Below, in pieces: positions 10,891 through 49,512 of a DNA stretch of 64,000 nucleotides. The stretch lies in assembly GCA_963580455.1 (NCBI GenBank), contig OY756961.1, positions 4,569,001 to 4,633,000 on the forward strand, given 5' to 3'. Position 1 is the first letter of the stretch. Each line of letters starts with the position of its first letter. Source of the stretch: Euonymus europaeus (Eukaryota > Streptophyta > Magnoliopsida > Celastrales > Celastraceae). Under the pieces are notes generated by a model. The model ran no database searches. It was not told the origin of the DNA and worked only from the letters and a program-made list of their open reading frames with translations. The position numbers were made by a program, and so were the translations under genes.

Positions 10891-13800
10891 ATGGAAACAA
10901 AGGAAGATCAGATGGTGATGGGGGGATCAGCTGAGTCGCCGGACTACGAGCCTTTGCGTGAGCTGGTGAGGCACCACATAGAGTCCTACGATCACATGGT
11001 GTTGTATGGATTGGAGACCATGTTCGAGTCCATCAAGCCTGTCGAAATATTTGATCCCTCCACCGAGAAAACGCTTAGAAATATCCTTGTTCTTACAAGT
11101 TTCAATTATTGTTTTTTCCCCCTTTCTCGAGTTATTTCAATAACTGTTTGGTTGCTAGGAGAATGCGATAAATTATAGGAATTTCTATTTTTATTGTCAC
11201 TGCATCTCTTTTTGTTGTTACGATCATGAGAAGAGAATTAACCACACCGAACAAATTAAATTGGTTAGAATTGGTACTCTTTTAATGTTTCTACTTAACT
11301 TTATTTTACTCTGGTTGAGTAAGCCTCGACTCTACCATCCTGTAAAGGAAGGTACAATGAAGAAGATTGGCAAGCCTCTGCTTCCTTTTGAAGTGAGTTG
11401 AAGTTCTAGATTTCAAATCTTTTAAGAATTTTTGGTCGTATTTCCATATCTTGTTGTTGCGAATGAGTTGGATTTGTTTCTGTGAAACAGTGTCGCCAGG
11501 CGAAGATTTCATATGCTGGAAAATTCACTGCTGATGTTTGCTTCCAGTATGGTGGTGATGGTGCTGCTATTATACGGGAAAATTTTCATCTTGGGCAGTT
11601 CCCTGTAATGTTAAAGGTTGGTTTTCTTTGTTTTTGATATCTTAAGTTTGCATGTGGTTGTGTTCTGAAAGCTTGAAATAACCTTCTTATTTACTGTATT
11701 TATGTGCTATCATGCAGAAAATTTTCCTGTTAGAAAGAGGTGACATACATATACGCGTTTTTGAGTCATAAATAATATAATGACAATTAAGCTTATATAA
11801 ATTAATGAGGTTCTGCATACACATTTTGTGGCCATTAGTTGCATATTATGACTTTGACAATGCATGCCAGTAAATCCACACTATTTGGCATGTTGAAGCA
11901 ATCGTAACAAATATTAATCAACATTGGGTAAATGTACCTGAGTAGATTTTGCATGTAAAACTTTTATGTGATCTTTGTATTAGTGTTTGAGTAACTTCTG
12001 CTGGTGATTTTTTAATTGATAGTAGTAAAGTCTCGACACCCAATACACTGATAGGCAATAAGTTGACTAGAAGAATATATATATATATATATATAAATTG
12101 GATCATTGGTGGCAGATTTTATGAGTTCGAAACTCTCACTATAGCTTAAACATGCTTCACCTTACTTTGGTTTGTAGGGAGGTTGTTTTTACTGTTTGAA
12201 CACGTAATGTTGAAGTTGAAATAAAGCAACTTTAAGGACATATATTGTACATAATAACACCAAAAAACAATTAGAAACAATACAATTTTAACTCTCTTAG
12301 CAGGCTAAAAAAGTTCTATAAAAAGATCCACAACGCAGTGATTGTAGGACAAGTATGAATGAACAGTAACCATGTGAATGTGAGTAGTAATTTGAAAAGT
12401 AAACAGTCTTTATGACTTATGAGGGTTAAGAACAATATCTTTGAAGAAGTAAACCTAAGCATCACAGGTTCCTAGGAATCTAATCTAGGGTTTTGTTGTA
12501 TCACGCAAACCATAATAGTGAGTAGCTGCAAGCAGTCTTCTTTTCATTAATCATCATTCTCCTCAATAATACTTTACATCCTTTTTTGTATAGGTGTATG
12601 TGCTTAACCCTAGTGGGTTTGGATGCTAAGGCTTACAAAGCAAAAATTAACCCAAAAACATAATTAAACCATAATAAAATCCAAATACCCAAACTAACAT
12701 AAATTGACTGGCCCACACTAGTTATGCAAGCTCGGTCATGAATCTACATTGCATAGATCCTTAAATTTACTTGTGCCAGACCACCTCTTTAGCTTCTTCA
12801 TCACATGGGATATATCTTAGTGAGCCACTTCAACATAATGACAGTTTAAGTTGAACTTTCCACACCGTCAACTGCCCTTGCATTCCTTTACACCTTTTTT
12901 TTTTTTGATAAGTTGTGGGGTTTACTATAATTTTTTGAGTGGGTGAGGAATCGAATGTGCACCTCATGCAAATTATAAGGAGCAAGCCACTTCACCAAAA
13001 TTACAGTTTGACTTGACCATCCACAGTCCTTGAATTCCTTTACATCAATAGACAACAAATCAAGAAAGTGCAAGCAATCCTCTGTGCAGCTGTACTTCTT
13101 TCTCTCCTCCTCTTTTAGAAAAATGTTCCAAGCTACTCCAGATTTGAATTAATAGTTCAGTCTTTTTTTGTTTCTATTTTTTAAGCTCGCTTTTTGTCTG
13201 TTTAAATGTGGTGGCTCAAGCATTGAGAGGGTTACTTCATGTATGTTGTGCCCTCTTTTTAATAAATTAAGTTTCTCATTGTACTAGCCCAAGATGGCCT
13301 GCCATCTGTAGTAGTTGTGGTGTGGCAGTCACCATTGCTATTGGACTAGCTAATTTTGTGTTGTTCTTCGCTCTTGTTTGGTGATTGAAAGTGTTTTGCT
13401 ATGCAGTCTATGCTTTGTCACTTGAAAAGTGCTGATCCGAAGAAATTGGTTTCATGGAAAGAAGAACCATCAGAAATGGGTGGGTAAGTAACTTTCTGCT
13501 TCGTTTTGAGAATTCATTGTCTAAATATTTCATTGGCTTATATGGGCATTGGATAGTAATTTTCATGATGTGTTATCCGGTAACATTTTGATGGAACTTC
13601 TAACTGAACGTATTGGTAAACATATTTTGCATGTTTTGTGGAACATGGAAATAGTTACAATGGTAATGGCAATGTTATCTGGTAATTTCTAATGGAACTT
13701 ATGGCAGGTCAAATGATAAGCTAGCAGAATGTGCTAATGAGCACATATTCATTATGTGGTTTGTGGTGCATGCCACATCATGTTTTGGTTGAGAATCACT

Positions 13801-16800
13801 AGTATGTTTGAGAGAAATTGTTAAAGAATATACCTGGCTGTGCTTTGTGGTAAATGGAGTATGATAGATGCGATGACAAAGCCCACATTTTTTTTTGAAT
13901 GTAAAACAAAACGTATTCTACTGCAGAGGGTGCAAACAGTACACTAGTGTTGTTTGAAGTTCGAAATATATTGCAATTAGTTTCCACCACACCTTTAACC
14001 AAGCACAAAAGATTATGGAACCAGAAACATTCAATAATACACAATGAAGTTTCAACCCCTCTGAAAACCCTATTGCTGAATCTTTTCAGCATCCCTTCTG
14101 ACTCCTGTTATTGATAGGTAAGAAAAAGCTATCATTTGATCTTTGATATCCTCGCAACAAGTCTGCAACCCACTGTGTAGTGTATACTCAACGTCTTTCT
14201 TGTCTTGTGCAATAGATTTTCACTCCATTGACAGTGAAGGAGAATAAGAACATGGTAATGCTCTTTCTTGCATAAATAGCATTTAACCAAGCCTATGTGT
14301 GTCATTGAATGGCCATATATCAATTATAGAAGATTTAAATCATTATTCTCCTCAAAGTTTTTATCTCATATAAATTTGTGCTGGCTTCTTGAATTCGTAA
14401 GAGATTATTTTTTCTAAATTTAATGTTTATTTTGCCACTTTTATGTAGTTACTTCATTTTGAATGGGCTTGAGAGAGTTTTCCGACTTGTAATCTTGCCG
14501 AAGCGGAATTATGTAAGTGACGTTTCTTGTTTTAGGTATACATCTTGTAGTATTTGCAGGTAATTTTAGATGACTGTTTGAGGAAAAAAATTGAGCTATT
14601 CTTTTTAAAAAATTGTTGAATTTTTTAACCAAATATAAGTAACTGATAGTTGCTTATTTGCCATTTTTTTATGGGACTGCTCAGTATGCCGGAATTGATG
14701 GTGGGACTTCCTGATACTTGTGAAGTTCTTGGAATTTTTATTAGTTTCACAAATGTTGTACAGCTTAATGAATGCTTATTTTGCAGCCAATGAGTATGGT
14801 GCGAGGTTCATTTTCTGAACGGCGTGAAGGGTACACTGATAAAGCTGTTGTGATGAGGTTCGAGAGACATTTATTATTACCCCATTTGATTATTCTATCT
14901 GTTTAAATTCAGCTTCTTAGGACATTAATTTAAGATTTAACCTTATGCTGTGATTATGTGCAATTGGATATGTTCAGATTTTCAGATGCATCTGGCTAAA
15001 TATAATTTTGCTTCTAGATGTTAATTTCTCTAAAATCACTTCTTAGTTCTTACTCATCCATATTTCAATATAAACAACTTTGCTGCAGCATTTTAGTCTA
15101 GAAGTTTTGCTTACATCATACCTGGCAAAGTACTGTCCTAGCTGCAATTCATGTTGGTGGAATGTTAACTCTGTTTCCCATAATTCATCTGTGGTTTTCA
15201 CATCAGACTCAATAAAATTTTCTCTGTATTAATTGACTATGTTGGTGAGCCTACTGGCATTCTTATTCTAGGTGTGTAAGAGAGGATTTATCTGCAGTAA
15301 CAGTCAAATTGTATTATCTTCGCAATGGAAGCGCAAGACTTGGATTTTGGTAGGTTATTTCAAGTTTTGATTTGTTACTAGTTGCTTACGTGTTTGAGGA
15401 CTTAGTAGTAACTTCGTGTAAGTTATTTTTTGCAGGATACGAAATAGGGAGTACATGCTTCCTGTTGGCATTGTTCTTAAGGTTTTCCTTATCTATTTAT
15501 TTCCATCGTCTCATGCTTTTGTGCTTCTTAATGTTCTATGTAGTGTTAAAAAATGATAGGTGCTAATGAATTGGGAGGATAATCTCTGGATTGGCTTACT
15601 TATGGTCTCTATCTCAACTTATATTATTTTTGTAATAATGTGTTAATCTTAAGTCATACTTTGCTTGAGGGAAGGTAAAAGAAGACCTAGTCATTTATCA
15701 AAAGGCTTTTATGGGACTGTCTGAAAACAAGGATATGCTTTAAGTTTCGGCCTATTACTTGAGGAGATCAGTATAATTTATATTTTTGGGGCAGAGGGGA
15801 AGATATAGTATGGCTAACCAATCAATTATTCAAATTATGGGCAAGATAAAGGTGATGCTTGCTTAGAGTTACAACAACTAATAGAGCTAATCAGCCACAT
15901 GATGTAACTTGAAACATCCACAGATGTATGATTTGGTGAACCTTTTAATCTTAAGTCCATAACATAATATTCTCCATTAGGTTGTGATTGTTAAAAAATT
16001 AAATTCTTAATATGGGTTATTGTTTATGAGAAATTTATTCTAGATTAGCAGTGGCACTTTTACTGGGACTCTATTGTGATGGTCCTGCATTTTATGATAC
16101 TTAAAAGTATGGTGCAAAAATCATTGTTCGTATGGAATCTTCTATTGTTTTCCGAAATGTTGATGGATTGCTATACTGTCGAGTTTCCAACCCTCGCTGC
16201 TTTTTTCCAAGCCTACTAATTGCTATGCCTTTTTGGCAGGCTCTTGTTGACACTAGCGATCGTGAGATTTATGAGAATTTGACATGCTTCTATGATGAGA
16301 AATATGAGAAGGTAAAGGGCTCTGTTGGGACTCCTCTTGTGGGTGAAAGAGCAAAAATTATCCTTGATGAAGTTCATTTCTTGTCTCTGTTTACTAGGAC
16401 ACAATGTCGACATCACATTGGTATTCGTTACCCTTAAACCTTTTATTATTTTGTCTGAAAAATATTGGCCGCCTGTTTTGATTCCCTTCATCATAATTAC
16501 AGGGCAGCACTTTCGTGAAGTCATGATTGGGCTGGAGAAGAAAAGTTTTTCTGATGTAAGTAACATTCTGTCTTAAAAATATATATACAATCTTTGGTAT
16601 GTGAAAGTTAAGCGAAGGGATATGATTTCTGCTCTAGTATGTCTACTCAGTGTACTGGATTAGATCCTGGAACTCAGTCTACTAGCTTGTCTCTTTTTAT
16701 TTTGTAGGTGGCTGATGCTGTTCTAAAGGAGTACATATTTGTTCATCTAAATAACAATGATGACAAGTTCAATCTGCTCATGTTAGCTGCAACCTCCCTT

Positions 16801-19800
16801 TCTTGATTGTTACTTATTAATATAATTAAGCAACATTGCCGCTTTTCTTGTCGGCTATTCTTTCTTTTATGCTGATTTAGCCTTTTTCTTTAGCTTTATG
16901 GTTCAGAAACTCTTTTCACTTATAGATCAGACATCTGTACCTGACAATTCGGACTCCTTGCAAAATCAGGAGGCCTTGCTCCCTGGTCATCTGATTACTA
17001 TTTATCTCAAGGTGGGTATTGGGAAAAAAATTATATGCTTTCCTTTGTAGTTTGTAGTAGTACTTTACATCTAAAAGATGAACTAACAATGTGCATTAAT
17101 CAGCATGACCTTTGTTCCTTTATTTTCTCTGATTATCTTAATCTTGGTATGATTGAAAGAATTTCTTTTCTGTTCTATGATTTTCAATGTTTTGGGATGA
17201 GCAAAAAATATTGTTGTCTTCCCTTGTAAAATGAATATCTTGTTTTTGCCTTCCTCCTTGAAGTTAAATCTAATGTGGGACGTCAAACCCTGGGTTTTGT
17301 TTTACTGTTTATTTACTGAGATTATTGATGAAGTGGAAGATGTCTGATAATAGGATTTATGCAGCTGAATATAGTGACATTGTTCTAAGGCTCATATGTA
17401 ATCTTTATCTCTTCCTTTTTTTGTTCCCTGCGCCGCTTTTCTATGTTGTAGGTTTTGTGAAATATGGAATGTATTACTTTTTATCACTTAAAAGAAGAAA
17501 ATACCTGGTTCATATTTAACATATTGCATTGTGATTTCTAGGAGAAACTAGAAGATTGGCTACAAAAAGCAAAAAAACTTCTTGAGGATGAAATTAGTGA
17601 CAAAAGCCCAAAAAAAGCTTTTGACTTCTGCAGCTGTATGTTATATTCTTTCCTTGTTTTTTTCTACTCTCTTCCTAGCCTCTCGTGATCCTTGGTTTGT
17701 ATATTTTCATTGATATCTGCTTTTTTTTTATGTTATTCGTCTTGGTAACATGTCTTAGTTTGATAGGCTTTAAAAATGAAAAGAAAAAAAAAACTCTTGG
17801 ACACAAGTCTTGCGCAGTGGGTGGGGTCTGAGACAGACAGATGTACGGAGACCTTAGCCTCACATAATATATGGTGATTAACCTCTAGGTTGCAACACTG
17901 TAACTCTACCACTATGCTACATGTTTGATAGACTTTTTGAAATTTATTATTTATGGAATCCATTAGGAATTTGTAGTTTTCATGACATTCTTAAGCTGGA
18001 AGGAGGTTTCCGGAGGCCACACAGTAGACGACGCCTTTTGTTGAAAGCTTTGCAATGGGCAGGGGAGGGTCACCAGACGTCTTCTTTTTTGTTGTTTAAT
18101 AATTTGCTTAATCAATATGAGAGATACAAAGGCCACATGGTAGGCACCCTTGTTGATCTTGCAGTAAAAGAAAAAATTCCCAAAAAAAGAAAAAAATATT
18201 AGGCCTCTGGATTTGTTTTCCTTCTGTGAAATACTACATTTTACTTGTTTTATTACACTGATTGGATTGGTGTGAGCAGGTTTCCCATCTTTCTTTTAAC
18301 TAAAAGAAATTTATCATCTGTGGAATAGAGTAGTGGAAGTTCCATGCTGCAGAATCTATTGTATTTCACATGGATTTCTGTTTCCTGTGTTAAACTTCTC
18401 CGTCTTTTCTAGCAGTGTTGTACAGCTTTAGGTCCCTGCTTTATTTTCTTGAGTTAATCAATTAAACAATTTATGATAGTATGCATATGGGATTTGAATT
18501 TGTAAGTGTGGGCATGTATTGGCTTATTTGTAGAGCTGGAGAACGTTCCCACCTGCCTTTAGCAGTTGATTGTCATTTTCTAGTTGAAAAGCCAAGTTTT
18601 GATAATATGCTATTTTAGAACCTTATTCAGACGCATAAGTTTCCTACCATAAATGTAAATGAGTGTGTTTGGAATATGTTTCCAAAACTGTTTTTTGTTT
18701 TTCAAAATATAAAATTGGATGAAAATTCATTTGGTGTTACAGTTTTTCAAAATTGTGTTTTTAAAAACAGAAAATCGAAAACAATTAAATCATGTTTTGG
18801 AGAATTTTGAAAATGGATTGGTGGCATTTTTGTGAATAAATTGAAATTCATTTTTTTCCTCTTGCTCTACCTCTTCCTTCCTTTCTCATTAGTTGTTATG
18901 ATCTCTTCTCTCTCATTTCTTCTCTCTCCAACTCTTCTCTCCTTTGTCTCTTCTCCATTATTTCTCCAAATTTATTTGATTTACTTTCTGTCATTGTTCA
19001 TTACTCTTCTTGTTATATTATATAACTAATCTTATTTTGTGTCTAAACGTTGTATTTTTTATTTAGAAAACAGTTTACAAAATAACATAAGCAAACTGAA
19101 TTTTTAACACTTCATTCATTTTAAAAACTGTTTTTGAAAACTATACTCAAAATCGTTTTTAATTATTAAAAACAAAAATAATATCCAAACATACTCTTAA
19201 TTTCTCCATTCTCTTCTGAGATAATGCAGTAGCGCATGTCAAAAAGATCATTGATAAAAATCCTCTGAAGCAAATTGGTCTAGCTGTTGAGACAATGCTA
19301 AGGTCTGGAGGATTAGCTACACAATCAGGCCTGGATTTACAGCAGGTATTGGCTTACTGGCAATCAACGTTTTAGTTTTTCTTTGTTAGACCTTGGCCTC
19401 AACCTCTGTCCAAAAAGCATTCGTTATTGTATGGTAGGACCCTGTGTTACTTATTTGTTTGATCTTGATTTGGATGAAGTTCAACTATAAAAAATGAGAA
19501 AACTAATTGGAAAACTTTTACATAGATTAACTGCGAAGAAATTCCACAAATATTTTTTGTTTTTCAGTACTGCATTAACTAACATTCGTTTGCATTTCCT
19601 TTTTCTATTTGCAAAAAAACCAATCTACCGAATGTAATAATCAAACCACTTCTTCCATTTATATTTTTGCATTGTTGCTTCGAAATTTTTAGTCTATTGT
19701 TTAGGTGAATGGTGGGTAAGCCTTGATGGGTCTTACTGTATGCAATAAGAGGACGCACATGGTAATCAACTGTCAGATATGCATAATCTAGTTTTTCATT

Positions 19801-22800
19801 CGATATGCCTCATTTTCATTGTACAAAACAAATTTATGTTAGCAATTGTAATCCACTTACAAGTTTACTTTTCCAATCTGAAATATTTTTTTAGTCCCTT
19901 CCAAAAAATTGTTAACCAACTTTAACTTCGTATAGAATTTACTGAATCATTCTATCATTTATATATTCATGTCTTCATTTGTTAATTTATTTATTTCTTT
20001 ATCAATACATTTGGGTCCTGATTCGTGTATATGTTGGATGGCCATTTATGAATACCTGATGTTTCATTAGAGAGCGGGCTTCACTGTCCAGGCAGAGCGA
20101 CTTAATTTTCTGAGATTTATTTCATTTTTTCGATCTGTTCACCGAGGAACTTCTTTTGCTGGACTTCGGACAACAAGTGTTCGGAAATTGCTTCCCGAGT
20201 ATGAATCTGTTTTCCCTATTCATGAAGGCTCATGATTTAATCTTGATAGTCATATTTTTACCTTTTCTCTTCATTTATCCTTTTCCTTTTCTGAATTTTA
20301 CAGATCTTGGGGTTTTCTTTGTCCTGTTCACACCCCTGATGGAGAGCCATGTGGATTGTTGAATCACATGACCCGCACTTGTCGTGAGTTATTTTTCCTT
20401 TTCTTCTAATTGATTTATATGTTCTTCAAATGTAAAATACTCTAATGTTGTACATTTTATTTTTTCCCATCTATTATCGGGAAAGTATCCAAGTTTTGAA
20501 AACCCCCACTATATCCTCTCCCCAGCTGCCAGGACAAGTCATGGTGTCAGCTTGGTGCCTGACTTAAGCAATAGGTGCAATTCATTATTTTGTTCAGTAT
20601 AATCATGGAAAATATGTTTCCTCGATTTTAGCATAAATCTTGCTGTGCTTATGAACAAGTCATTTCTTATTGTAATTTCAAATGCTAACTAAGCTACTTA
20701 TCCTTCATGGTGATTGATTTTAGTATTGAAAAGTATGAACACATAATCAGCTTTGTAAGAATGTTGACCTATTGAGGTTTAAATTATTTCTTTTGCAATC
20801 AAAAGGACAAAAAAGTTTGATCCTTCTTTGATAGGTTTCTAATAATGTAGGAATAACTTTTTGCATTCTGTCTTGTGTTTCAGGTATTACATCACACATT
20901 GATTCGGAAAATGAAATCAGGGACTTTTTTAAAATAAGGGTGTCTATTCTTAATGTCCTAGTTGGCATTGGGATGACATCTTCATTACCAAAACTTGTCA
21001 AAGCTGGTCCTCCTCAAATTCTCCATGTTCTTCTAGATGGTCGTGTTGTTGGTGTTATCCCCTCCAGTGAAGCTGAGAAAGTCGTCGGCCATTTAAGGAA
21101 ATTGAAAGTGTTAGCAAGTTCAGTGGTCTGTTTTCATATTATTGCATAATTATCTAGATTTGTTTCATTCGATGTTATTTCCACTGTTATGCTACATTAA
21201 GCATAAGCAATTGCAGATTCCTGATGATCTGGAAGTCGGATATGTTCCTCTGAGCTTGGGTGGTGCATATCCTGGTCTGTATTTGTTCACAAATCCTTCT
21301 AGATTTGTTCGCCCAGTCAAAAATTTATCTATCCCTTCCAGTGAAAGTCAGAATATTGAACTTATTGGACCATTTGAACAGGTGAGTTCTGAAATTCCTT
21401 TTGTATTTGTTTTGGTAAATCATTTTTTAGATAACCATAAAGCAAAGCTCAAAAATTAAGATTGCGAAGTCAAATCTCTCTCTTATAATAGTACTGCACC
21501 CCATTTGATCAAAATTTGTTTTATTTGCACCATACAAGGTTTTTATGGAAATAAGATGTCCTGATGGTGGAGATGGAGGAAGAAAGAATGCCTTCCCTGC
21601 AACTCATGAAGAAATTCATCCAACTGGAATGCTTAGTGTTGTCGCTAATCTCACACCTTGGTCAGAGCATAATCAGAGCCCACGTAACATGTACCAGTGT
21701 CAGGTTTGCTTGTGTTGACCATAGCAAATCGTTAGTTGTTGTATAATGTTATAGCTTTGCCTGGAATCTTCATGTGTTTGTTTCTTACTTTGGTTTGTTC
21801 ATAAATTGTAGATGGCGAAGCAAACAATGGCATTCTCATCAATAGCTCTTCAATTTCGTGCAGATCAAAAGCTATATCATCTTCAGGTATGGTTCATGTT
21901 TTCTACTGTCTTGATTTAGGTATGTTTGACTGCCCGCCCACTATTGCAACTATACAGAAATATCAAATATCTGTGAAATTTTTGACATTTTCTTGCCAAT
22001 GCTTTGAGACTGCTTACTTTTGAAATTAGTGAACTTTAAAATCCTACTTGGTTCCATCTATTAAAGTATTTGTTTGTTGTCCACACTTCATGTTTGCATG
22101 AATTTTTTTTTTTTTGGGAGGGAGCTTCTGTCGTTAGCTTTTATATTGAATTAAGCCATTTTCGCTCAATGAGCCGGCGGGACTCTTCCAACTCCTCTGA
22201 ATGCAAGTTATTGTCTAAGTCACTGTATGGGCCATAAAGAGATGCTCGTCATATAAATCCATGCCAATTTCTTTATTCGTCAATTTTTGGTTTTCTGTGT
22301 TCCAAGATATTAAGCACACTAACTAGTCTTTGATTTTTCCCAATTATATGTGCTTATTCCTTGTGTATACTAATTTATGATATGGCCTAGTGTGTGCACT
22401 CTATGAATAATAAGTACAGGAACTAGTTTTTGATTTCTGAATTTTATGTGCTTATTATTTTTGTATACTGATTTGTGATATTGCACAGTTTCTGTATTTA
22501 CCATTCTTTTTGTTACAATATTCTAAAATGGTTGTAATTAATTTTAGATTATTGACACTATATTGGTAAATATATAAAAAAGATCACATGCACCAAAGTT
22601 ACTAGGTGGACGCTGGCTTGGGAAAAGAGCAAGAATGCGCAACCTTACTCCCTGCATCGGGATAAGCTGTTTCCAGGATTTGAACATGTGATGATTGAGT
22701 TGTGGTGAAACAACTTTAGCTCCAGGCCACATTTTTGCCTTAGTTACATACTCTAGATTATTGCTCTTAAAAAGAAAGAAATCATGCACCATTGATTACT

Positions 22801-25800
22801 TAAGTGTTAAACATGAAAGCTTTTTCCTTTATCTAACTTGTGATTACTGGTGGTGAAAAAAAAAATTAGGGAGTAATTTTTTCGTTGTGCATCTGCTAAC
22901 ATATTATTTTGGGTGAAACAATAGTAAGGATCAGTGTTGTTAAATTATCCTGTATACATTATCTGGATAAAGGGTTTTGGAAAGATAAAATTAACGGATT
23001 GTTGCAATTTGTTTCTGGATGCTCGTTATAACAAAAGTATTTTCATTGTTCAGACGCCTCAAAGTCCCATTGTACGCACAAGTACTTATACTAAGTACAG
23101 CATGGATGAGCATCCATCAGGTACAAATGCAATTGTTGCGGTGCTTGCATATACAGGGTATGTAACTTAAGTACTGCTGTTAAGTTGATTTGTCATCCAT
23201 AAATTTATGAATTAATTTTCTGTACTCTATTCAGATACGATATGGAGGATGCAATGATTCTGAATAAGTCCTCTGTTGATCGTGGGATGTGTCATGGTGA
23301 AATATATCAGGTTTGCCCCCTATTTTTGTTTATTGCTTCTTTGAAAACTAAAATTTCCTGGAGGTTTAGGAATTGGATGATATGTAATAGCTTGCCACAC
23401 TCTGTGTATATGTTTGTTGGTTTTTATGTGCACTTCATCTTGTTGGAATTTAAGCATATTGTTGTTCTATCCCGTTTCTTGATTTTCAATCCACAGCTGC
23501 CGTTCATTTGGATTTTCATATAACTGCAAATTTCCTTTTACATACTTTCTCACTCTTTACAACTTGTAATTACAGTTTATGGGGGAACCTTTTGTGCAAT
23601 ATTCTCGATGGTTTGTGCTATAAATAAGTATGATGTCTTTATATATGTGCCATTGATATTGATCAAGAGTAGATCTATTCAAATGATCCAATCACTGAGA
23701 AAGAACAAAAATAAAAGTGATAACTTGAAAGCTAAGCTATAAAAGGCATGAATCCCGGTAAAGGAGACTGGTATTTCTTTTGTTACTTCTGTTGACTTCT
23801 TACCACTTCCAATGGACGTGGTTTGGATATTTTGTTTTCCATATATATTTTTCATTACTTGGCCATTGGAGATGAAAAAAAAAGGTTTAGTTAAACCCAG
23901 TGCACAATAGTCTTTTCCTTTGGTTATGAGAAGCATCTGTATGAGAAACCTTAGCTCTAACTTGAATTGGGATGTACACATTGAATGCACATGTATACTT
24001 TTTGGATAATGTGCAAGTGTAACCTCTCAAGGTGAGGGCTACACTGGTGGTTCACTCTCTTAAACTATATCTTTCATAGGATTGTAACTTAGATGCTGTT
24101 GTAATTGATATATTCACTGACATTTATCATTTATATGCGGGTATAGTGTTACTTTAGCTAATTATTGCCATCATCATAATATTTGGCAGACTGAGACTAT
24201 TGATTTATGTGATGGGAAAAGCAAGGCAGATAGAATTTTCAGAAGAAGTAACATTGATAAGTCAGCTCATCCCTTGATTGATGCTGATGGACTTCCATAT
24301 GTTGGTCAGGTGGCCTTTTATATATTAGTCTTTCAGTGTTGACTAATTTTTGGACTTTAATATTAATGATTATTTTCTAATTATTTATCTCAATGTGATT
24401 CAGATAATACATCCAAATGAGCCCTATTGTAGCATTTATAATGAGACAACAAGTACAACAAAAACCAACAATCGAAAAGGTTCCGAAACTGTTATAGTTG
24501 ACTATGTCGCGGTCGATACAAAGAACAAGAAGGATATTCAAAAGGTAAGTAAACATCCTTTCAGTATATCTGTTGTTGAATAATTGATTAGAACATGATA
24601 TTTTAGAAACAAAAACTGGTTCTCTTATCATAACATGATTTGTTGGACTGATAAAGATGCTGTTTAGGGTGGTTCATTACCTTCTTCCTCAAAAAAAAAT
24701 AAAAAATGAAGAATATAATTCCATGTAAAAAGAAGAAGAAAAATAAACAACTCTCGTGCACAAGGCTCCCATAGTAGGCGAGGTTGGAGACAAGGATAGA
24801 CAAGATGTATGCAGACCTTATCCCACTAATATTTGGAGAAATAGTTTATAGGTTGTGCCTTTGCAACTTTACCACTGGGCCACTTGTTCTCCTGCATATA
24901 ACCCCATGACTAATAAAAATTTGTTCAACCCTTCCCTCTTTTGCTCCAATCTAATGTCCTCATCTACTATGGATATGTGCAATAAATGCTTTTGATTTGG
25001 ATTTGGCAGGATGTGTCAAAAATAAAATCTGCGGGAATATACCTGGATTAATTGTGGGCATATTCTTTGGCTTATTGATCTGTGTTTCCATCACATTCAA
25101 CTTCCTAATTTCAGAATATTAGGTTTTGAAAGTGAACTTAAGATCTCGTGGTCTATCTTCTCGAGAGCCAGTGAAAATTTTGAGTATCTTTCACTCACCT
25201 GGAATATTCCCTCAAGGAAGGCTTTTGGTTGTAAATCCATTTGTATGGAGGTCATGGTAATTGACTACTGCTAAGAAAACAATTGCACTTCCATTTCCGT
25301 GACTTGTTTGTCCATTATAGAAAAGTTCTGTTCTGTTCGTGTTTTGCTGTTTGCATTTGATTTTTTTGTTGGCTAAACTTCTTTTTTTGAGCAGGTTAAT
25401 ATACGTTTTCGACACCCTAGGAATCCTGTTATTGGCGATAAGTTTAGCAGTAGGCATGGGCAGAAGGGTGTGTGCTCCCAGTTGTGGCCAGATATCGATA
25501 TGCCATTTTCTGGAGTCACAGGAATGCGTCCAGACCTTATTATTAATCCGCATGCTTTTCCTTCAAGGATGACTATTGCAATGCTTTTGGAATCTATTGC
25601 TGCAAAGGTACTACCAGCAAGAAAGTGAAAAACATCAATCTTGATTGTCATTTTATAAATTCTTCAAAGTGAATAGGCAAACTAGTAGGGCTGCTAAGTA
25701 GCATCACAGACATTCTCAATAAAATCCAGTACTATTATTATATTTTAGCACTAAAGAACCAAATTTCTTATCATATTTGGGAAACTTGAAGAGACTTGAG

Positions 25801-27618
25801 CTCTTTTTTTAACAACATAGGCCCTTATTTTACCCGGAAATGTAAATAATTGTTTATAAACAGCCACGCATGATAAGTTGAGGATTTTAGTTATCCCCCT
25901 TGTCCCCCCTTCCCCCAAAATAAAATAAAGAAGACAAGAAAGTTGAGAGCTTTAGATACTTGATAAATAATTTTGCTTTTATACGTTGTGTGTTCTCCTC
26001 ATGTAAACCCGTGGCAGTATCCTCTGTATTTTTACAAAGGAAATTCGTTTATATTTCTTATTTCTTTGTATAATTAATTCCATTCCATACATGATGGCAC
26101 ATGCTTAAGTAAATTATCATAGGGAGGCAGCTTACACGGACGGTTCATGGATGCAACACCATTTGCCAGTTCAGTGAAGGAGAGAGCTAATGAGAAGGAT
26201 ACTTCATCAGAGTCTAAATCTCTAGTCGATGAGCTCGGTGAAATGTTAAGAGAGAAAGGATTTAATTATCACGGTGCTGAGGTATTATATAGTGGGGTCT
26301 ATGGAATGGAACTTACATGCGAAATTTTTATTGGGCCTGTTTATTACCAACGGCTACGGCACATGGTTTCAGACAAATATCAGGTAAGCCCTTTTCTGGT
26401 GTTCCCTTGACAATATTTTTGAAGCTGAAGCGAGTGTTTGAAAGTTGTGAGTCATGACTTATATTCCATGGTTCAAGTCTTATGTCCATTGTATCTATTT
26501 CAAGTGAGGTAGGCTTGCAATGATAATAATGATGGTCATGACGACTCCAATAACAACCATGATAATAATGATGCGAAATTTCTTCTGTTTCTACTTATAA
26601 CTTGTGTCCTTGGCATTTTGCTTTGCTTCTTGTTGGCGGCCAAACAGCTGAAAATTTTCATTTGTGGGTAGATTTTAGAATGTAAATAAAGTTGTTCGTG
26701 CCTTTCAAAAGTGTTCAGTTGTCTGGAAATTTTGTGTTTATTGGTATAAGAATCAACTATCATGTGCTAATGAGCCCCTGATGGATGCAGTGGTGGGCAC
26801 CATTAGTAAGCTGTTTCTCATGATGCCAATTGCTGCCAGGCATTCTAGCATGTGGATTGTCTCAAAATTTGCATGGAAAATGTATTCATAGGTCTAGTAC
26901 ACTCCCCGTAAGTTGAAGCTCAGTGATAGCTGGACTTGAGCTTTATTAGTTTGGTTGATATTTCAGGATTGAATAGTGCCCCTTTGCAAATGCTTATAAT
27001 CAATAATATACTGGTCCTTTATTTGGCGGAAAATTTATGATTCAGTGACCAGGTGTCATTCCTGTCTGAAGAATTAAGTTTATGGAGGACTCTAGAACAC
27101 TAGTTAGTGATCTTCTTTTTCTTGCTCCTTTGTACAGCTCTGTCCAGTAAATGGTCAATCACTGTGTTGCATGTTTATTCACTAATGAGTTTTACATACT
27201 TGGCGTTCAGGTTCGTTCCACTGGAAGGGTTGACCATGCTACTCGACAGCCTATTAAAGGAAGGAAGCATGGTGGAGGTATCCGCTTTGGGGAAATGGAA
27301 CGAGATGCCATGCTTGCTCATGGGGCAGCGTATTTGTTGCATGACAGGCTGCATACATGTTCTGATTACCATATTGCTGATTTGTGTTCACTATGTGGAA
27401 GCATCCTCACAACAGTGTACAACCAGTCACAAAAGCGACCCGTACGACAGATTGGAGGGCTACCTCCTGGAAGGGCTCCCAAGAAGGTCACTTGTAATGC
27501 ATGTCAAACAAGTAAAGGAATGGAGACTGTTGCAATGCCTTACGTTTTTCGATATTTGGCTGTGGAACTGGCAGCTATGAACATAAAGATGACCCTCCAG
27601 TTAAAAGAAGAGCAGTAG
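10891..27618 (+). CDS. NRPA2: DNA-directed RNA polymerase I second-largest subunit
   Basis: Catalytic-core subunit of nucleolar Pol I, which transcribes 45S rRNA. 27 exons: 10891-11080, 11310-11392, 11491-11616, 13407-13483, 14449-14512, 14787-14857, 15272-15349, 15436-15481, 16240-16420, 16503-16555, 16708-16781, 16894-17011, 17542-17635, 19230-19345, 20071-20198, 20304-20383, 20884-21125, 21217-21381, 21539-21703, 21812-21886, 23054-23157, 23235-23310, 24190-24309, 24404-24544, 25395-25607, 26123-26383, 27211-27618. They sum to 3549 bp, 1182 aa, the usual plant NRPA2 length. Visible marks: [18 protein letters not shown] (from 777), [12 protein letters not shown] (from 903), [18 protein letters not shown] near the end, and a C-terminal zinc ribbon with C1106, C1109, C1142, C1145. 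LPPGRAPKK in the ribbon and the overall match point to Pol I rather than Pol II, III, IV or V. Intron 1 is AT-AC; three SINEs and a MITE sit in other introns. Confidence 0.96.
11081..11309 (+). other. U12-type AT-AC intron (NRPA2 intron 1)
   Basis: The intron opens with ATATCCTT at 11081-11088, the full U12 AT-AC donor consensus, and ends in AC at 11308-11309. CTACTTAAC (11291-11299), close to the U12 branch consensus TTCCTTAAC, puts the branch adenosine about 11 nt before the 3' end, the normal U12 spacing. Removing exactly this interval joins phase 1 to phase 2 and gives [14 protein letters not shown], matching the family. A GT-AG alternative (GT at 11089, AG at 11319) puts a stop codon at the join. 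Confidence 0.9.
12074..12095. repeat. (AT)n microsatellite in NRPA2 intron 3
   Basis: About 11 AT units in the 1.8-kb intron between exons 11491-11616 and 13407-13483. Nothing else in that intron is recognisable. Confidence 0.85.
17772..17923 (-). mobile_element. SINE (family B) with 13-bp target duplication, NRPA2 intron 13
   Basis: A 152-bp insertion. Read on the minus strand it has a tRNA-like head with an A-box-like ATAGTGGTAGAG and then a body with GGCTAAGGTCTCCGTACATC, ending in a T-rich tail (the A-rich run at 17773-17792 on the plus strand). Flanking repeats TTTGATAGGCTTT (17759-17771) and TTTGATAGACTTT (17924-17936) differ by one base. The same body recurs at 22555-22753, 24726-24895 and about 31965-32092. 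Confidence 0.8.
18661..19197. mobile_element. MITE-like element, NRPA2 intron 13
   Basis: A 537-bp AT-rich block that begins GAGTGTGTTTGGAATATG, with its reversed end reading GAGTATGTTTGGATATTA. Further inward, AAAACTGTTTTT-type sequence is mirrored on both sides. The centre has a long pyrimidine-rich run (about 18840-18970). There is no open frame of note and I could not fix a target duplication. The end sequence is typical of plant hAT/Harbinger-derived MITEs. Confidence 0.5.
22555..22753 (-). mobile_element. SINE (family B related) in NRPA2 intron 20
   Basis: A 199-bp insertion flanked by perfect TAGATTATTG repeats (22545-22554 and 22754-22763). Read on the minus strand it contains a B-box-like GTTCAAATCCTGG followed by AAACAGC and then GGGAGTAAGGTTGCGCATTC, a body shared by many plant tRNA-derived SINEs. 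It lies in the 1.2-kb intron between exons 21812-21886 and 23054-23157. Confidence 0.75.
24726..24895 (-). mobile_element. SINE (family B) in NRPA2 intron 24
   Basis: A 170-bp insertion. On the minus strand it has an A-box-like TGGCCCAGTGGTAAAG, then GGGATAAGGTCTGCATACAT and a T-rich tail. Flanks ATATAATTCCATG (24713-24725) and ATATAACCCCATG (24896-24908) agree at 11 of 13 bases and are taken as an aged target duplication. Confidence 0.7.
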
Positions 27619-34428: not shown

Positions 34429-36299
34429 ATAGTGAATTAAATTACACATGTGCGCCTTCTCTCTCGCTCGGTTTAACGAGATGTATCTGCAAGAGGGTAA
34501 CTCTGGTGCGGCCGGCGACGGTTTTGTTTTCTCTGGAATCGTTTCTTCAACAGTTAATCCTTCAATGGTTGATCCTTTCTTGTTCCTCTCACTCGCATAA
34601 CATTTTTTATTTCACCTCCTACTCCAATTGTATGTGTTGTGTAATTACGATGTCTGGTTTATGTCAGACTTTGGAATTTCCACTGGTTGGGGCTGCGTAG
34701 TTTGTCAAATTTGGTTTTGGGTGTGAAGCTGAATCGCTCTCATGGTATCTTTAGTAACTGAGTCTCAGTTCATCCAAAGCATTTGTGCTATTGTGGTAAA
34801 GGGTCAGTGGGAATGTCTGTTGAAACCCAAATTCGGTTTGTGTCTCTCGTCGACAAACATTCAACAGCTATTGCTGCAACTTTCTTTATATAACTGCGGT
34901 CCTTCTATTTCGTGGCCATTCTTTAAATGGACTGAATCTTCAATACCCAATTACAAGCACTCTTTGCAATCCACATGGACCATGGTTCACATTCAACAGC
35001 TATTGCTGCAACTTTCTTTATATAACTGCGGTCCTTCTATTTCGTGGCCATTCTTTAAATGGACTGAATCTTCAATACCCAATTACAAGCACTCTTTGCA
35101 ATCCACATGGACCATGGTTCACATTCTCACAGAGTACAAACACTTCAAAACTGCACAGGATTTGCTTGAAAAGATTGCATATAAGGATTTTTTGTCATCG
35201 CCATCTGTTTTGGGTGCTTTAGCGAGGACACATAGTGACCCAGATGTGAATTCTCAGGTTTTGAGTTGGCTTGTGTTATTTTATGCGAACTCGAAGATGA
35301 CCCAGGAGGCCATTCAAGTGTTTGAGCATATGAGACGTCATGGATTTAGTCTGCATTTGCATGCTTGTACTGTATTGCTGAACTCTTTGGCGAAAGAGAG
35401 GCTAACTGATACAGTGTGAAAAATTTATAAGAAGATGGTTAGAGCTGGGATTGTTGCCAATATTCATGTATATAATGTGTTGATTCATGCTTGTTGCAAG
35501 TCCGGTGATTTGGAGAAGGCAGAAAAGTTGCTGAGTGAGATGGAGTTGAATGGTGTTTTTCCTGATCTTTTTACCCACAATACTATGATTTCATTGTATC
35601 GTAAAAAGGGTGTGCATTATGAAGCGTTGTGTGTTCAGGAGAGGATGGAAAGGGGAGGAATTAGTCCTGATATTGTTACTTATAATTCACTTATTTATGG
35701 GTTTTGTAAAGAAGGTAGAATGAGAGAGGCTGTAAGGCTTCTTAAGGAAATTAAGGGCGCTGATGCAAATCATGTGACTTACACTACTCTGATCGGTGGC
35801 TATTGTAGAGCAAATGATCTAGATGAGGCTTTAAGATTGCGTGGGGTGATGGAGGCCAAGGCATTGTCTCCAGGGGTTGTTACATACAATACAATTCTCC
35901 GCAAATTGTGTGCAGAAGTCAGGATAAAGGATGCAAATAAACTTTTGAATGAGATGAGTGAAAAGAAAGTTGAACCAGATAACATTACATGTAACACATT
36001 AATTAATGCTTATTGCAAGATTGGAGATATGCGATCTGCACTTAAAGTGAAGAACAATATGTTGCAGGCTGGATTGAAGCTTGACCAGTTTACTAACAAG
36101 GCACTGATTCATGGGTTCTGTGAGGAGCGGGAGATAGAGAGTGCCAAAGAAATATTGTATGACATGCTCAGTGCAGGACTTTCTCCTAGTTATTGCACCT
36201 ACTCGTGGATTGTGGATGGCTACTGCAATCAAGACGATAAAGAGGCCATTGTTAGAATCCTTAATGATTTTGTGACCAGAGGACTTGGCGTCGATCTCT
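34429..36299 (+). pseudogene. PPR pseudogene, left half of a PPR-KEG chimera
   Basis: Close copy of the intact PPR gene at 41799-43553 together with its 5' flank (homology starts near 34429 against 41471). The frame opens at an ATG at 34742. A perfect 132-bp tandem duplication (34861-34992, repeated 34993-35124) adds 44 codons in frame. A TGG codon of the parent is TGA here (35417-35419). An internal ATG at 35435 opens a 322-codon frame with PPR motifs that runs into the joined KEG DNA and ends at 36403 with about 35 residues of out-of-frame KEG sequence. The copy stops at 36299, equal to parent position 43224, about 110 codons before the parent's stop. The full protein cannot be made. Confidence 0.93.
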
Positions 36300-37880
36300 G
36301 CGGAAATTCATTTGTGTGTGGACTGTACAATGCTCAGTCCGCATTACACTGCTCCAGAGGCATGGGAACCAGCGAAGAAGTCATTGAATCTATTCTGGGA
36401 TGACGCCATCAGTATATCTGTTGAGTCCGATGCTTGGAGTTTTGGTTGTACATTGGTGGAGATGTGCACAGGCTTTGTTTCCTACGTGAAGTACCTAATA
36501 TTTTATTCTACAATTTTTATTTTCTCCGTCTTTTGTTATTTCTCTGTCATTCCATACGTGCTTAGTAGTATGACTCATGCAGGTGGGCTGGTTTGAGTGC
36601 ACAAGAAATTTATCGAGCTGTTCTCAAGACTAAAAAACAGCTTCCCCAGTATGCAAGTGTAGTATGTGTTGGAATCCCTAGGGAATTGTGGAAGATGATT
36701 GGTGAATGTCTGCAGTTCAAGCCATCAAGAAGGCCGACCTTCAGTGCAATGTTGGCAATATTTCTTTAGAACTTGCAGGAACTCCCACGGAGGCCCCCTG
36801 CAAGTCCTGATAAGTAAGAATTTTAATGTTTATTCCTCGAGTCTTCCCTTCAGTGTTATTCTTTTCTTTGAAGTTCTTCAGATCGGATCTGACTTGGTTG
36901 TAGTTGAACCAAAATAAAAACGAGTTCTATGTTATATGAAGTTATGTGTGCGTGAGAGAGAGAGAGACAGAGAGACAGAGAGACAGAGAGAGAGAGACAG
37001 AGAGAGAGAGACAGAGTGACCATGAGATCAAACTTTTAACATCTTATCTGTTTGAGTGCAGTGGATTCGCAAAAAATGCTGGATTAAATGTGACAGAATC
37101 ATCTCTCGCACCTGATTTTGATGTTTTACAGAGCAATCCGAATCATCTACATCGACTTGTGTCTGAAGGGATTCTGTGCAGTGTTAGGTTAGTGTTATTC
37201 AATTCGAAGTTTTTTGTTTTAGTCTTCGTTTTGGCTTACTTTAGGCTTTATATTTCATCTTCTTTGCTGCCCTGCTTTGTTTGTCTATGCAGGGATATAT
37301 TGGCAAAGGCAGCATCAGGAAATGGTTGTCTCAATATCTATGCTATTAGAAGCACAGAATACTGATGGCCAAACTGCTCTCCAATTGGCTTGCAGACGTG
37401 GTAGTGCAGAACTTGTTGGGGCAATATTAGAGTATGCGGAGGCAAATGTGGATATTCTGGATAAAGATGGAGATCCTCCTCTTGTTTTTGCTTTAGCAGC
37501 TGGTTCTCCGGATTGTGTTTGTGCTCTAATTGAGAAAGGGGCTGATGTTAGATCTAGGTTGAGGGAAGGCTTTGGCCCATCTGTTGCCCATGTCTGTGCC
37601 TACCATGGCCAACCTGATTGTATGCGAGTAGGTTTTCAAAGCATCTGCTGTAGTATATGATTGCTCTGTTTGTTAAATAGTAAATTCTTCCTGCTGAATG
37701 AATTTTTAATTTATGAACAAGAGTTGCTTTTGGCTGGAGTTGATCCCAATGCAGTAGATGATGAAGGTGAATCTGTACTCCAAAGAGCTGTGGCCAAGAA
37801 GTATACTGATTGTGCTATTGTCATATTGGAAAAAGGTGGCTTATGTCAATGGCTATTTTGCTGTTCATATTGGAAAAAGG
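36300..37880 (+). pseudogene. KEG fragment, right half of a PPR-KEG chimera
   Basis: Copy of the KEG gene from within exon 2 (52662) through exons 3, 4 and 5 into exon 6, with all intervening introns retained, so it arose from DNA and not from mRNA. Homology fades near 37856-37880, where a short piece (CATATTGGAAAAAGGTGGCT) is present twice. Breaks: the exon 2 donor GT is CT at 36482; a TAG lies in the exon 3 copy at 36767-36769; 2 bp are missing in the exon 5 copy near 37327; the GA tract in the intron 3 copy has expanded. The fragment covers the kinase C-lobe and first ankyrin repeats. It has no KEG promoter and no start codon. Confidence 0.94.
36953..37018. repeat. GA/GACA-rich microsatellite
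   Basis: Runs of GAGA interspersed with GACA in the KEG intron 3 copy. The parent intron has only a short version near 53329-53348, so the tract expanded after duplication. Confidence 0.85.
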
Positions 37881-41178: not shown

Positions 41179-41798
41179 TGCTTTTTAATTATTGCAAGAA
41201 GCGAAGGAGTGAGTCACTTACCGCTTTCCCATTTATATTTTTTCTTTACCAGAAAAACATAAAGCTCCGTAAAAGGGCTCTGCTCGAACGATGCTCGTTC
41301 TATTTCGAGAAAATTTCCGCTCTGTCACTTATATGTATATTTTTTCTTTGCCATGTCTGTTTTTAAACATGTAAGAATCGGCCCGGGAATAGTTCATACG
41401 ATTGTCGCGCTGCCGGGTCGGATGAAGTTGTGCCGGGCCTTTTATATATATTATTATATGTTTACAGAAAAGCATAGTGAAGTAAATTACATATGTGCCC
41501 CTTCTCTCTTCGCTCGGTTTAATGGGATGTGTCTGTAATTTTAGGGTAACACTGGTACGCCCGGCGACGGTTTTGTTTTCGCTGGAATCGTTTCTTCAAC
41601 AGGTAATCCTTCACTGGATGATCCTTTCTTGTTGCTCTCACTCGCATTATATTTTTAATTTCTCCTTCCGCTCCAATTGTATGTGTTGTGTAATTACGAA
41701 TTTACGATGTCTGGTTTGTGTCAGACTTTGGAATTTCCACTGGCTAGGACTACGTAGTTTGTGGAATTTGGTTTTAGGTGTGACGCTGAATCGCTCGC

Positions 41799-43553
41799 AT
41801 GGTATCTCTAGGAACTGAGTCTCAGTTCATCCAAAGCATTTGTGCTATTGTGGTAAAGGGTCACTGGGACTGTCTGTTGAAACCTAAATTCGGTTTGTGT
41901 CTTTCGTCGATCAACATTCAACAGCTATTACTTCAAATTTCTTTATATAACTGCGGTCCCTCTATTTCGTGGTCTTTCTTTAAATGGACTGAATCTTCAA
42001 TACCCAATTACAAGCACTCTTTGCAATCCACATGGACCATGGTTCACATTCTCACAGAGTACAAACACTTCAAAACTGCACAGGATTTGCTTGAAAAGAT
42101 TGCATATAAGGATTTTTTGTCATCGCCATCTGTTTTGGGTGCTTTAGCGAGGACACATAGTGATCCAGATGTGAATTCTCAGGTTTTGAGTTGGCTTGTG
42201 ATATTTTATGCGAACTCGAAGATGACCCAGGAGGCCTTTCAAGTGTTTGAGCATATGAGAGGTCATGGATTTAGTCTGCATTTGCATGCTTGTACTGTAT
42301 TGCTGAACTCTTTGGTGAAAGAGAGGCTAACTGATACAGTGTGGAAAATTTATAAGAAGATGGTTAGAGCTGGGATTGTTGCCAATATTCATGTATATAA
42401 TGTGTTGATTCATGCTTGTTGCAAGTCCGGTGATTTGGAGAAGGCAGAAAAGTTGCTGAGTGAGATGGAGTTGAATGGTGTTTTTCCTGATCTTTTTACC
42501 CACAATACTATGATTTCATTGTATTGTAAAAAGGGTATGCATTATGAAGCTTTGTGTGTTCAGGAGAGGATGGAAAGGGGAGGGATTAGTCCTGATATTG
42601 TTACTTATAATTCACTTATTTATGGGTTTTGTAAAGAAGGTAGAATGAGAGAGGCTGTAAAGCTTCTCAAGGAAATTAAGGGCGCTGATGCAAATCATGT
42701 GACTTACACTACTCTGATCGATGGCTATTGTAGAGCAAATGATCTAGATGAGGCTTTAAGATTGCGTGAGGTGATGGAGGCCAAGGGATTGTCTCCAGGG
42801 GTTGTTACATACAATACGATTCTCCGCAAATTGTGTGCAGAAAGCAGGATAAAGGATGCAAATAAACTTTTGAATGAGATGAGTGAAAAGAAAGTTGAAC
42901 CAGATAACATTACATGTAACACATTAATTAATGCTTATTGCAAGATCGGAGATATGCGATCTGCACTTAAAGTGAAGGACAATATGTTGCAGGCTGGATT
43001 GAAGCTTGACCAGTTTACTTATAAGGCACTGATTCATGGGTTCTGTAAGGTGCGGGAGCTAGAGAGTGCGAAAGAAATATTGTATGACATGCTCAGTGCA
43101 GGACTTTCTCCTAGTTATTGCACCTACTCATGGATTGTGGATGGCTACTGCAATCAAGACAATAAAGAGGCCATTGTTAGAATCCTTAATGATTTTGTGA
43201 CCAGAGGACTTTGGGTCGATCTCTCAGTGTACAGGGCACTAATAAGGAGGTTATGTGAAAGAGAGAAGACTGATTGTGCACAAAGAATATTCAGTATCAT
43301 GCAGGAGAAAGGTTTATCAGGAGATAGTGTTATCTACACTAGTCTGGCACTTGCTTACTGGAAGGCAGGGAATGCAAATTCCGCTTCAGATATGTTGGAT
43401 GAAATGTACAAGAGAAGGTTGATGATCAATCTCAAAATTTATAGTTCTTTTAATTCCTCGTACGCTAGAGACAATGTATTAGATATCTTCTGGAATTATG
43501 CCGTTGAAAGACGTGTTATGTCAAAAAGTTTATTAAAGGAAGTGCTCAGATGA
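41799..43553 (+). CDS. P-class pentatricopeptide repeat protein
   Basis: Intronless 584-codon gene. PPR proteins bind RNA in mitochondria or chloroplasts, affecting processing, editing or translation. From about residue 120 to 560 there are roughly a dozen 35-residue motifs, for example VVTYNTILRKLCAESRIKDA and NITCNTLINAYCKIGDMRSA. No E, DYW or SMR extension is present, so it is P-class. The sequence resembles the Arabidopsis At5g38730 type from memory; I give no symbol. The first 100 residues are not repeats and may hold a targeting peptide. The ATG at 41799 has a well-matched counterpart in the pseudogene copy. This is the parent of the copy at 34429-36299 and differs from it by a few percent. 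Confidence 0.93.
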   Translation: MVSLGTESQFIQSICAIVVKGHWDCLLKPKFGLCLSSINIQQLLLQISLYNCGPSISWSFFKWTESSIPNYKHSLQSTWTMVHILTEYKHFKTAQDLLEKIAYKDFLSSPSVLGALARTHSDPDVNSQVLSWLVIFYANSKMTQEAFQVFEHMRGHGFSLHLHACTVLLNSLVKERLTDTVWKIYKKMVRAGIVANIHVYNVLIHACCKSGDLEKAEKLLSEMELNGVFPDLFTHNTMISLYCKKGMHYEALCVQERMERGGISPDIVTYNSLIYGFCKEGRMREAVKLLKEIKGADANHVTYTTLIDGYCRANDLDEALRLREVMEAKGLSPGVVTYNTILRKLCAESRIKDANKLLNEMSEKKVEPDNITCNTLINAYCKIGDMRSALKVKDNMLQAGLKLDQFTYKALIHGFCKVRELESAKEILYDMLSAGLSPSYCTYSWIVDGYCNQDNKEAIVRILNDFVTRGLWVDLSVYRALIRRLCEREKTDCAQRIFSIMQEKGLSGDSVIYTSLALAYWKAGNANSASDMLDEMYKRRLMINLKIYSSFNSSYARDNVLDIFWNYAVERRVMSKSLLKEVLR

Positions 43554-46062: not shown

Positions 46063-46494
46063 ATGATGGAGGTGCAAAACATGCAAAGCAAGAGAGAATT
46101 AGTGAGAAGGAGATGTAATAACAAGAAGGCACTCAAGGTTGTCTACATATCAAGCCCTATGAAGGTTAAGACTAGCGCATCCAGATTTAGGGCTCTTGTG
46201 CAAGAACTCACCGGGAAAGACTCCGATACGGCTCGTTTGATGGATGCTAATGGTGGAGAGTATTCTCCCACTGTTTCGGAACTAAGCCCGGTGGATGATC
46301 AGGAAACGCCATCGATGAAGGAGGAGTTATCGCCGACGAAGTTCTCGGATTCTGTATTTGGGGAGACATATGAAGATTACCATAATTTTCTTGTTCCTCG
46401 AATGGATCAGGAGAGTTATTTTGGGATGCTCCCATCAAATTTGTTCCTTGAGAATTCTCAATTTGATGCACTTAGATTCTTAAATGATCAGTAA
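46063..46494 (+). CDS. VQ motif protein, sigma factor-binding protein (SIB) type
   Basis: Intronless 143-codon gene. VQ proteins bind group I/IIc WRKY factors; SIB1/SIB2 also carry plastid targeting and bind plastid sigma factor. The motif FxxxVQxLTG is complete at residues 42-51 (FRALVQELTG), preceded by KVVYISSPMKVKT, which is typical of the SIB subgroup. The remainder is acidic and Ser/Pro-rich with a short aromatic C-terminal half. I chose the first of two adjacent ATGs at 46063; the reading frame upstream has no earlier ATG. The stop is at 46492-46494. The VQ family is certain; the SIB subgroup is likely. Confidence 0.9.
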   Translation: MMEVQNMQSKRELVRRRCNNKKALKVVYISSPMKVKTSASRFRALVQELTGKDSDTARLMDANGGEYSPTVSELSPVDDQETPSMKEELSPTKFSDSVFGETYEDYHNFLVPRMDQESYFGMLPSNLFLENSQFDALRFLNDQ

Positions 46495-48448: not shown

Positions 48449-49512
48449 GAGATATATATCATTTTTCGAATCGAAATTAAGACAACACCTGTTCAATCAA
48501 CCACAATAAATACCAACAAAACCTACACTAAAACAAATTCATAAAAACTACTCTTCCAGATCACACCATTCTTGCTTTCAACTGGCCCAACACTAAGCAA
48601 GCATGCATGGAAGAAAAATAAAATTGATTCCGGATCTGACAACATTATTTGTTTATGAAATATGTACATGTTATATCTTAATCCGGATTGTATTTTGACC
48701 ATATATAATTGATAAAACTCAAATTGCTTTAAATCCAAACTAGTAAATCAAAAAATAATATAATCCGGAATTCAAACAAATAAATAAGATAATTTTTTTT
48801 GTGATTGCACTTGAATCCAATTTTTTAAATTTATAACTCATGTCCAATTTAATCCAGACAAATTCGATCATCCATATTAACACCCCTACAAACAAGTGTA
48901 AGCAAGTAATGCGCATATAGTAGTTAGGAATCTTAGGCTCGTTGTAGAGACCTCTTGGGCTTAAATTTTTTATTAAAATTTTTAAAAATTATTTTTGTAT
49001 TTCCATTGACATTTTGATGATATTTTTTGTTTGAAATAAAAAATAAATATTTTTTGTTTGGAATACAAATTAAATATTACATAAAAAATATTTAAACCCT
49101 AAAAGACCTCTATAGTGGGCCCTGCTGGAGAAAATCTACGGAAGGGCCCGAACTTCCATAGCAGTCATGCGCGGCCAGGGAGCCAAAAGCCAGCAACAAA
49201 AGGAAGAGAACCGCATCGAAAACAAACAACCAACAACACGGAAAAGACAACCAACACAGAAACTGAATCTTTTTTGTTTTTCCCAAAATACCCCTCCCTC
49301 GGCATTGCTCTCCCCGATATCTCTAAACCCTCATTCCTCTTCGATTATCCCTCTCTTTTCTCTTCGTGATTTAATTCACTTATATGGATCTACTGAATTT
49401 TAGTCTCCTGTGATGTGATCCTCTAGCGTTGAACTGTAGTTTCGATTGTTGAATTTTCTCTGTAACTTTTTTTGTCTTTCATTTTCCGGGGGAGTTGTGC
49501 TGGTGTGAGAAA

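Follow-up and report, generated by a model that had tools for sequence, protein, structure and literature searches.

The window analysed here, a 64-kb stretch of the Euonymus europaeus genome, harbours the coding region of NRPA2, which encodes the second-largest RNA polymerase I subunit. Its first intron differs from all others of the gene in its end dinucleotides. The features that are relevant for this intron are listed below, with positions counted from the first letter of the window.

10891..27618, plus strand: NRPA2 coding region (RNA polymerase I second-largest subunit), 27 exons and 1182 amino acids in a hand-built model
10891..11080, plus strand: coding part of exon 1, 190 nt, ending in phase 1 (T L R + A)
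11081..11309, plus strand: intron 1, U12-type AT-AC, 229 bp, phase 1
11081..11088, plus strand: 5′ splice site ATATCCTT, an exact match to the U12 AT-AC consensus reported in PMC2831892
11289..11299, plus strand: U12 branch site TTCTACTTAAC, 9/11 to TTTTCCTTAAC, with 11298 or 11297 as candidate branch A
11308..11309, plus strand: 3′ splice site AC, the first AC beyond the one inside the branch site
11310..11392, plus strand: exon 2, protein end PFE, followed by the GT-AG intron 2
11176..11178, plus strand: in-frame TAG within intron 1, at which translation of a retained intron would end after 95 codons

Upstream of the NRPA2 start, a telo-box (AAACCCTAA) is located at 10733 on the plus strand, one of two in the window, and three site-II-like motifs (TGGGCY/RGCCCA) are found at 10664, 10675 and 10680. 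The pairing of telo-box and site II is typical of plant ribosome-biogenesis promoters. Further along the window, Pfam searches revealed a pair of near-identical PPR genes separated by about 7 kb (34645-36403 and 41702-43553), which contain 300-nt blocks that are 97% and 92% alike. The first copy has an in-frame stop at 35417-35419 and, as judged by eye, a different end and a stretch of about 45 residues repeated within it; the second copy has an open frame of 587 codons. A gene for a small VQ-motif protein (PF05678) lies at 46006-46494. The region from 49453 to 63432 harbours, in order, pieces with Pfam matches to a RING finger, ankyrin and the Mind-bomb SH3 repeat, and a kinase-like piece was recognised by eye at 52302-52898; together, these pieces resemble the plant E3 ligase KEG. 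No Rfam match was obtained in the 64-kb window at gathering scores.

The NRPA2 model, for which the exons were joined by hand, could be read through 1182 codons to the stop without internal stops. GT-AG ends were found in 25 of its 26 introns, the sole exception being intron 1, and by their sequence these 25 look like introns of the major-spliceosome type. An extra exon at about 20527-20572 was tried and dropped, as joining exon 16 straight to 20884 restored the family sequence. Among the matches listed, the best was the DNA-directed RNA polymerase I subunit 2 of Tripterygium wilfordii, which also belongs to the Celastraceae (95% identity, 100% coverage), and the second-best protein match stood at 79%. 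The product contains the Pol I-specific Pfam domain RNA_pol_Rpa2_4 (PF06883, 72.5 bits). When solved chains were compared using a patchwork query, RPA2/RPA135 scored highest (about 320 bits), followed by RPC2 (179) and RPB2 (154). The presence of PF06883, the higher scores of Pol I chains compared to those of Pol II and Pol III, and the homologues all support the gene identity that had been proposed from the letters of the window alone.

Exon 1 ends with CTT AGA A at 11080 and exon 2 starts with TC TGG at 11310, which places intron 1 after 63 of the 1182 codons. Within the intron, ATATCCTT at 11081 is followed by TTCTACTTAAC and then by TTTATTTTAC up to 11309, and its 3′ end reads TTCTACTTAACTTTATTTTAC. 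The near-invariant U12 donor is reported to be ATATCCTT (PMC2831892), to which positions 11081-11088 correspond exactly. The other features of the AT-AC class are present as well, namely a conserved branch site (TCCTTAAC) near the 3′ splice site and a terminal AC whose join restores the protein. To score the branch site we used TTTTCCTTAAC, an extended form of the published consensus TCCTTAAC; two mismatches were observed over its 11 positions, and the candidate branch A at 11298 lies 11 nt from the intron end. The sequence-only reading of this locus had described a perfect U12 AT-AC donor, a correctly spaced branch-like motif and an intron from 11081 to 11309, and all three were recovered exactly as described.

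We estimated how often such a combination is expected by chance, requiring an exact ATATCCTT donor, a branch site matching at least 9/11 positions and a spaced AC. In 200 first-order Markov sequences, this signature occurred on average 0.075 times per 64-kb strand, a figure that leaves out the coincidence with an exon border. Over both strands of the window it was observed once, at intron 1 and on the exon border. A weaker case, with ATATCCTT and AG as its ends and a branch site of 8/11, is found on the minus strand at 15736-15664.

To follow the intron in relatives, we compiled 188 distinct plant proteins from three lists, consisting of the best 120 of 1174, 2664 and 2915 matches, respectively; such top-scoring lists favour well-built models. 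Forty-one of these proteins came only from a source tagged 'lgn' with contigs of about 3.6-4.4 kb. As this length just fits the 3.5-kb coding region without introns, we infer that these contigs are assembled transcripts. Among the matches listed, 38 of the 41 transcript-sized homologues are uninterrupted at the intron 1 junction, mostly reading LRIW, and the remaining three begin downstream of it. In the latter (P0179, P0186 and P0187, from the monocot-centred list), the encoded NRPA2 begins past the junction, on contigs of 3728-3944 nt. Contigs of this length could hold the entire coding region, and the three could be intron-retaining transcripts.

The other 147 proteins, all annotated models, were sorted by pattern classification followed by hand correction, by which P0019 and P0051 were assigned to the joined models and P0023 and P0129 were not. 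Among the matches listed, this resulted in 104 joined models, 11 models that read through the donor, and 32 truncated or misjoined models including seven that appear to read out of the 3′ end of the intron, which leaves 25 truncated, misjoined, partial or permuted ones. The exact junction is missing in 43 of the 147 listed models, although the 32 include partial or permuted models (e.g. P0068 and P0077), whose failure need not stem from junction 1. One further model, P0098 of Solanum bulbocastanum, has LRNWF at the junction codon compared to LRIWF in its relatives, which is either a shifted join or a substitution.

The models in which the junction is missing carry residue traces of the intron ends. 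After exon 1, N-I-L, H-I-L or D-I-L was found in all 11 of the listed donor read-through models, which are from Xanthoceras, Erythroxylum, Flemingia, Rhododendron simsii, Musa, Zingiber, Dioscorea and Digitaria, with four of the 11 belonging to the single genus Musa. After a phase-1 exon, these residues are the translation of A/C/G|AT ATC CTN, that is, of an N|ATATCCT donor. A GTATCCT donor would be expected to give S/R/G/C-I-L, which was not found after exon 1 among the matches listed; the R-I-L present in P0129 sits on the 3′ side, ahead of exon 2. In the listed Musa proteins, the joined models have V (GTN) and the read-through models D (GAT), which reflects the same exon base. For the opposite end, seven apparent 3′-end read-outs were picked by eye (P0023, P0042, P0100, P0123, P0125, P0129 and P0139, from Senna, Vitis, Glycine, two Capsicum, Anisodus and Rhododendron molle), of which P0023 from Senna is the least clear. 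In all seven, the junction codon reads L, whereas I stands there in their joined relatives among the listed matches. Since exon 2 starts with TH, an L before it argues against a final G of the intron and fits a final C.

The residue traces in 11 donor and seven acceptor models of the 147 listed agree indirectly with a conserved position and class of the intron in orthologues and none contradicts it, all of these being misannotated proteins. They suggest that the AT donor is common to monocots and eudicots and that the intron has a non-G end in eudicots, the only group among the matches listed in which the acceptor trace was seen. As donor traces occur in both monocots and eudicots, the AT donor probably predates the split between them.

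The failure to annotate this junction was also assessed with a uniform alignment test, in which junction 1 was broken in 40/147 annotated models compared to a median of 2 (range 0-14) for the 25 junctions of GT-AG introns, a contrast that may in part be a position effect because gene 5′ ends are misannotated more often in general. For the same 147 listed models, the automatic count of 40 compares with 43 after hand correction. In the transcript-sized contigs, junction 1 was broken in 4/41, three of which lack the junction, and the maximum elsewhere was 8/41 at junction 13. Ab initio prediction is reported to miss such sites (PMC5716242). In practical terms, 43/147 models remain unjoined at the AT-AC junction, some of them with in-frame nonsense inserts that carry the N/H/D-I-L trace, and with this trace, protein databases by themselves could be screened cheaply for AT-AC introns that were overlooked.

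In one respect the sequence-only reading was wrong, as it had denied that any GT-AG choice would keep the frame. In our enumeration around intron 1, an open frame was kept by 87 GT-AG and 41 GC-AG pairs, which gives some room to the explanation that a GT-AG pair elsewhere forms the real junction and that the AT-AC signals arose by chance. In addition, the exon 1 GT donors at 10966, 11004 and 11022 have strengths of 7.2, 4.5 and 4.4, on par with the donors used in the rest of the gene. We scored the joins with a family profile built from the 38 transcript-sized homologues. On this profile, the AT-AC join 11081/11309 ranked first among 236 in-frame joins (176.4 bits), and joining 11080 to 11310 in frame indeed gave the family-matching protein that had been predicted. 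The second rank was taken by another AT-AC pair, with an AC that falls within the branch site (166.1 bits), while the best GT-AG join reached 161.3 bits, the best GC-AG join 159.0 bits and the retained intron 73.1 bits. The best GT-AG protein is therefore 15 bits under that of the AT-AC join, and its donor is weaker than all 25 used donors; the GT donors in the top eight GT-AG joins scored 1.4-2.1 versus 4.0-11.5 for the used ones, on a matrix trained on these same 25 NRPA2 donors. Joins from 10966, 11004 and 11022 lose exon-1 residues and reached maxima of only 94.9, 125.4 and 137.3 bits, respectively. The GT-AG and GC-AG alternatives were ruled out by the family profile and, where the profile scores were close, by site strength. 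Together with the uninterrupted AT-AC join in 38/41 of the listed transcript-sized homologues, this leaves a GT-AG junction with a probability close to nil.

It could also be argued that the NRPA2 protein starts downstream, which would make intron 1 part of the 5′ UTR and render its class irrelevant to the protein. P0069, P0091 and P0130 do begin at a Met after the intron, and exon-1 residues are absent in 3/41 of the listed transcript-sized contigs. However, exon-1 protein is present in the other 38 of these listed contigs, the Pfam domain RNA_pol_Rpb2_1 begins at residue 24 of the NRPA2 product, and the RPA2 chain of 7ob9, which we take to be the human one, aligns from residue 21. A downstream start is thus highly improbable. 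The same can be said of an intron that has AT-AC ends and is nevertheless removed by the major (U2) spliceosome, although such class-I AT-AC introns are reported (PMC6310983). U12 introns are described as being defined by donor and branch site, with the end dinucleotides not decisive (PMC3584512), and the exact ATATCCTT and a U12 branch site close to the consensus, 11 nt ahead of the AC, both argue against removal by the major spliceosome. With donor, branch site, spacing and homologues in agreement, the class assigned by the sequence-only reading holds, and we consider 11081-11309 to be an old angiosperm U12-type AT-AC intron, the first of 26 in the NRPA2 coding region, with a probability of about 0.96.

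How unusual such an intron is depends on the comparison. It had been called rare even among U12 introns; AT-AC introns are indeed rare among all introns (on average 0.06% in 121 plant species, PMC6310983), but they are reported to have a sizeable share of U12-type introns, with Arabidopsis at 26%, soybean at 23%, rice at 22% and maize at 13% (PMC7367187), so that 13-26% of the U12-type introns in these four plants are of this kind. Similarly, weight had been given to its early placement in the gene. The intron does lie early, after codon 63, but this is typical for U12 introns, which are reported to be enriched in the 5′ parts of genes (PMC2426677), and hardly special. The reported order of minor intron phases in animals and plants is 1 > 2 > 0 (PMC10639083). 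Both the phase 1 and the early position of intron 1 are thus in keeping with its class.

Intron 1 shares with other U12-type AT-AC introns the ATATCCTT donor, a TTAAC branch site 11 nt before the AC and phase 1, and like them it is a single one amid many GT-AG introns near the 5′ end; apart from the two mismatches of its branch site to TTTTCCTTAAC, no further difference was seen. The U12 intron of plant CBP20 (PMC5932401) is likewise described as a single minor intron that land plants have conserved in an RNA-metabolism gene. Gene and position differ from those of intron 1, and the title of that paper indicates that a role of the CBP20 intron was put to the test. The machinery is also the same for U12-type GT-AG introns, whereas NRPA2 intron 1 ends AT-AC and no GT donor was observed in the read-through homologues listed. 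In the papers searched, we found no pairing of NRPA2 with U12 splicing, of POLR1B with a minor intron, or of At1g29940, presumably the Arabidopsis NRPA2 locus, with an intron, and NRPA2 was absent from the papers listed by a broader search. The Arabidopsis, rice, maize and soybean orthologues may well already be present in supplementary tables or in intron databases such as IAOD, U12DB and ERISdb. Intron 1 is an ordinary if neat finding, a probably conserved example of the well-known AT-AC class at which gene models are often wrong.

From the known workings of this class, the U11/U12 di-snRNP would recognise the donor ATATCCTT and the branch site TTCTACTTAAC jointly, after which U11 would give way to U6atac at the 5′ splice site. 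The branch A near 11298 would then attack, and the exons would be joined at 11080/11310 to give a continuous NRPA2 protein. Euonymus europaeus presumably uses its minor spliceosome for intron 1 in this manner. When the intron is retained, the reading frame ends after 95 codons; nearly all of the protein, and with it a full-length Pol I subunit, is therefore expected to require minor splicing, as judged from the gene sequence. Unspliced NRPA2 RNA would probably be decayed or kept in the nucleus, and intron 1 might thereby have an effect on rRNA output.

The sequence-only reading had proposed that the intron would tie Pol I assembly to U12 splicing efficiency. In a similar vein, intron 1 might act as a conserved regulatory valve, in which slow minor splicing would set the level of NRPA2 and link Pol I activity to minor-spliceosome capacity. 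U12 introns are reported to be several-fold slower in vitro, with a proposed rate-limiting role (PMC3584512), and slower splicing, with a rate-limiting role again proposed, is likewise described in PMC8329584. In animal cells, the level of U6atac is reported to gate minor-intron genes (PMC3728624). The stop after 95 codons upon retention and the donor trace in both monocots and eudicots among the matches listed would also fit a valve. On the other hand, a pan-eukaryotic survey suggests that much of the evolution of minor introns may be due to neutral processes (PMC10639083), and nothing observed here sets NRPA2 apart from other minor-intron genes, so that we regard a valve as doubtful. We also think it unlikely that the AT-AC intron at codon 64 was held through angiosperm evolution with minor-spliceosome capacity limiting NRPA2 and hence rRNA synthesis; if true, Pol I would be a plant-wide target by which U12 splicing sets growth. 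Reduced levels of U11/U12 proteins are reported to cause growth defects in plants, with the decisive targets left open in that account (PMC4892727). As an essential gene and a probable target of minor splicing in plants, NRPA2 could help to explain the growth defects of U11/U12 mutants.
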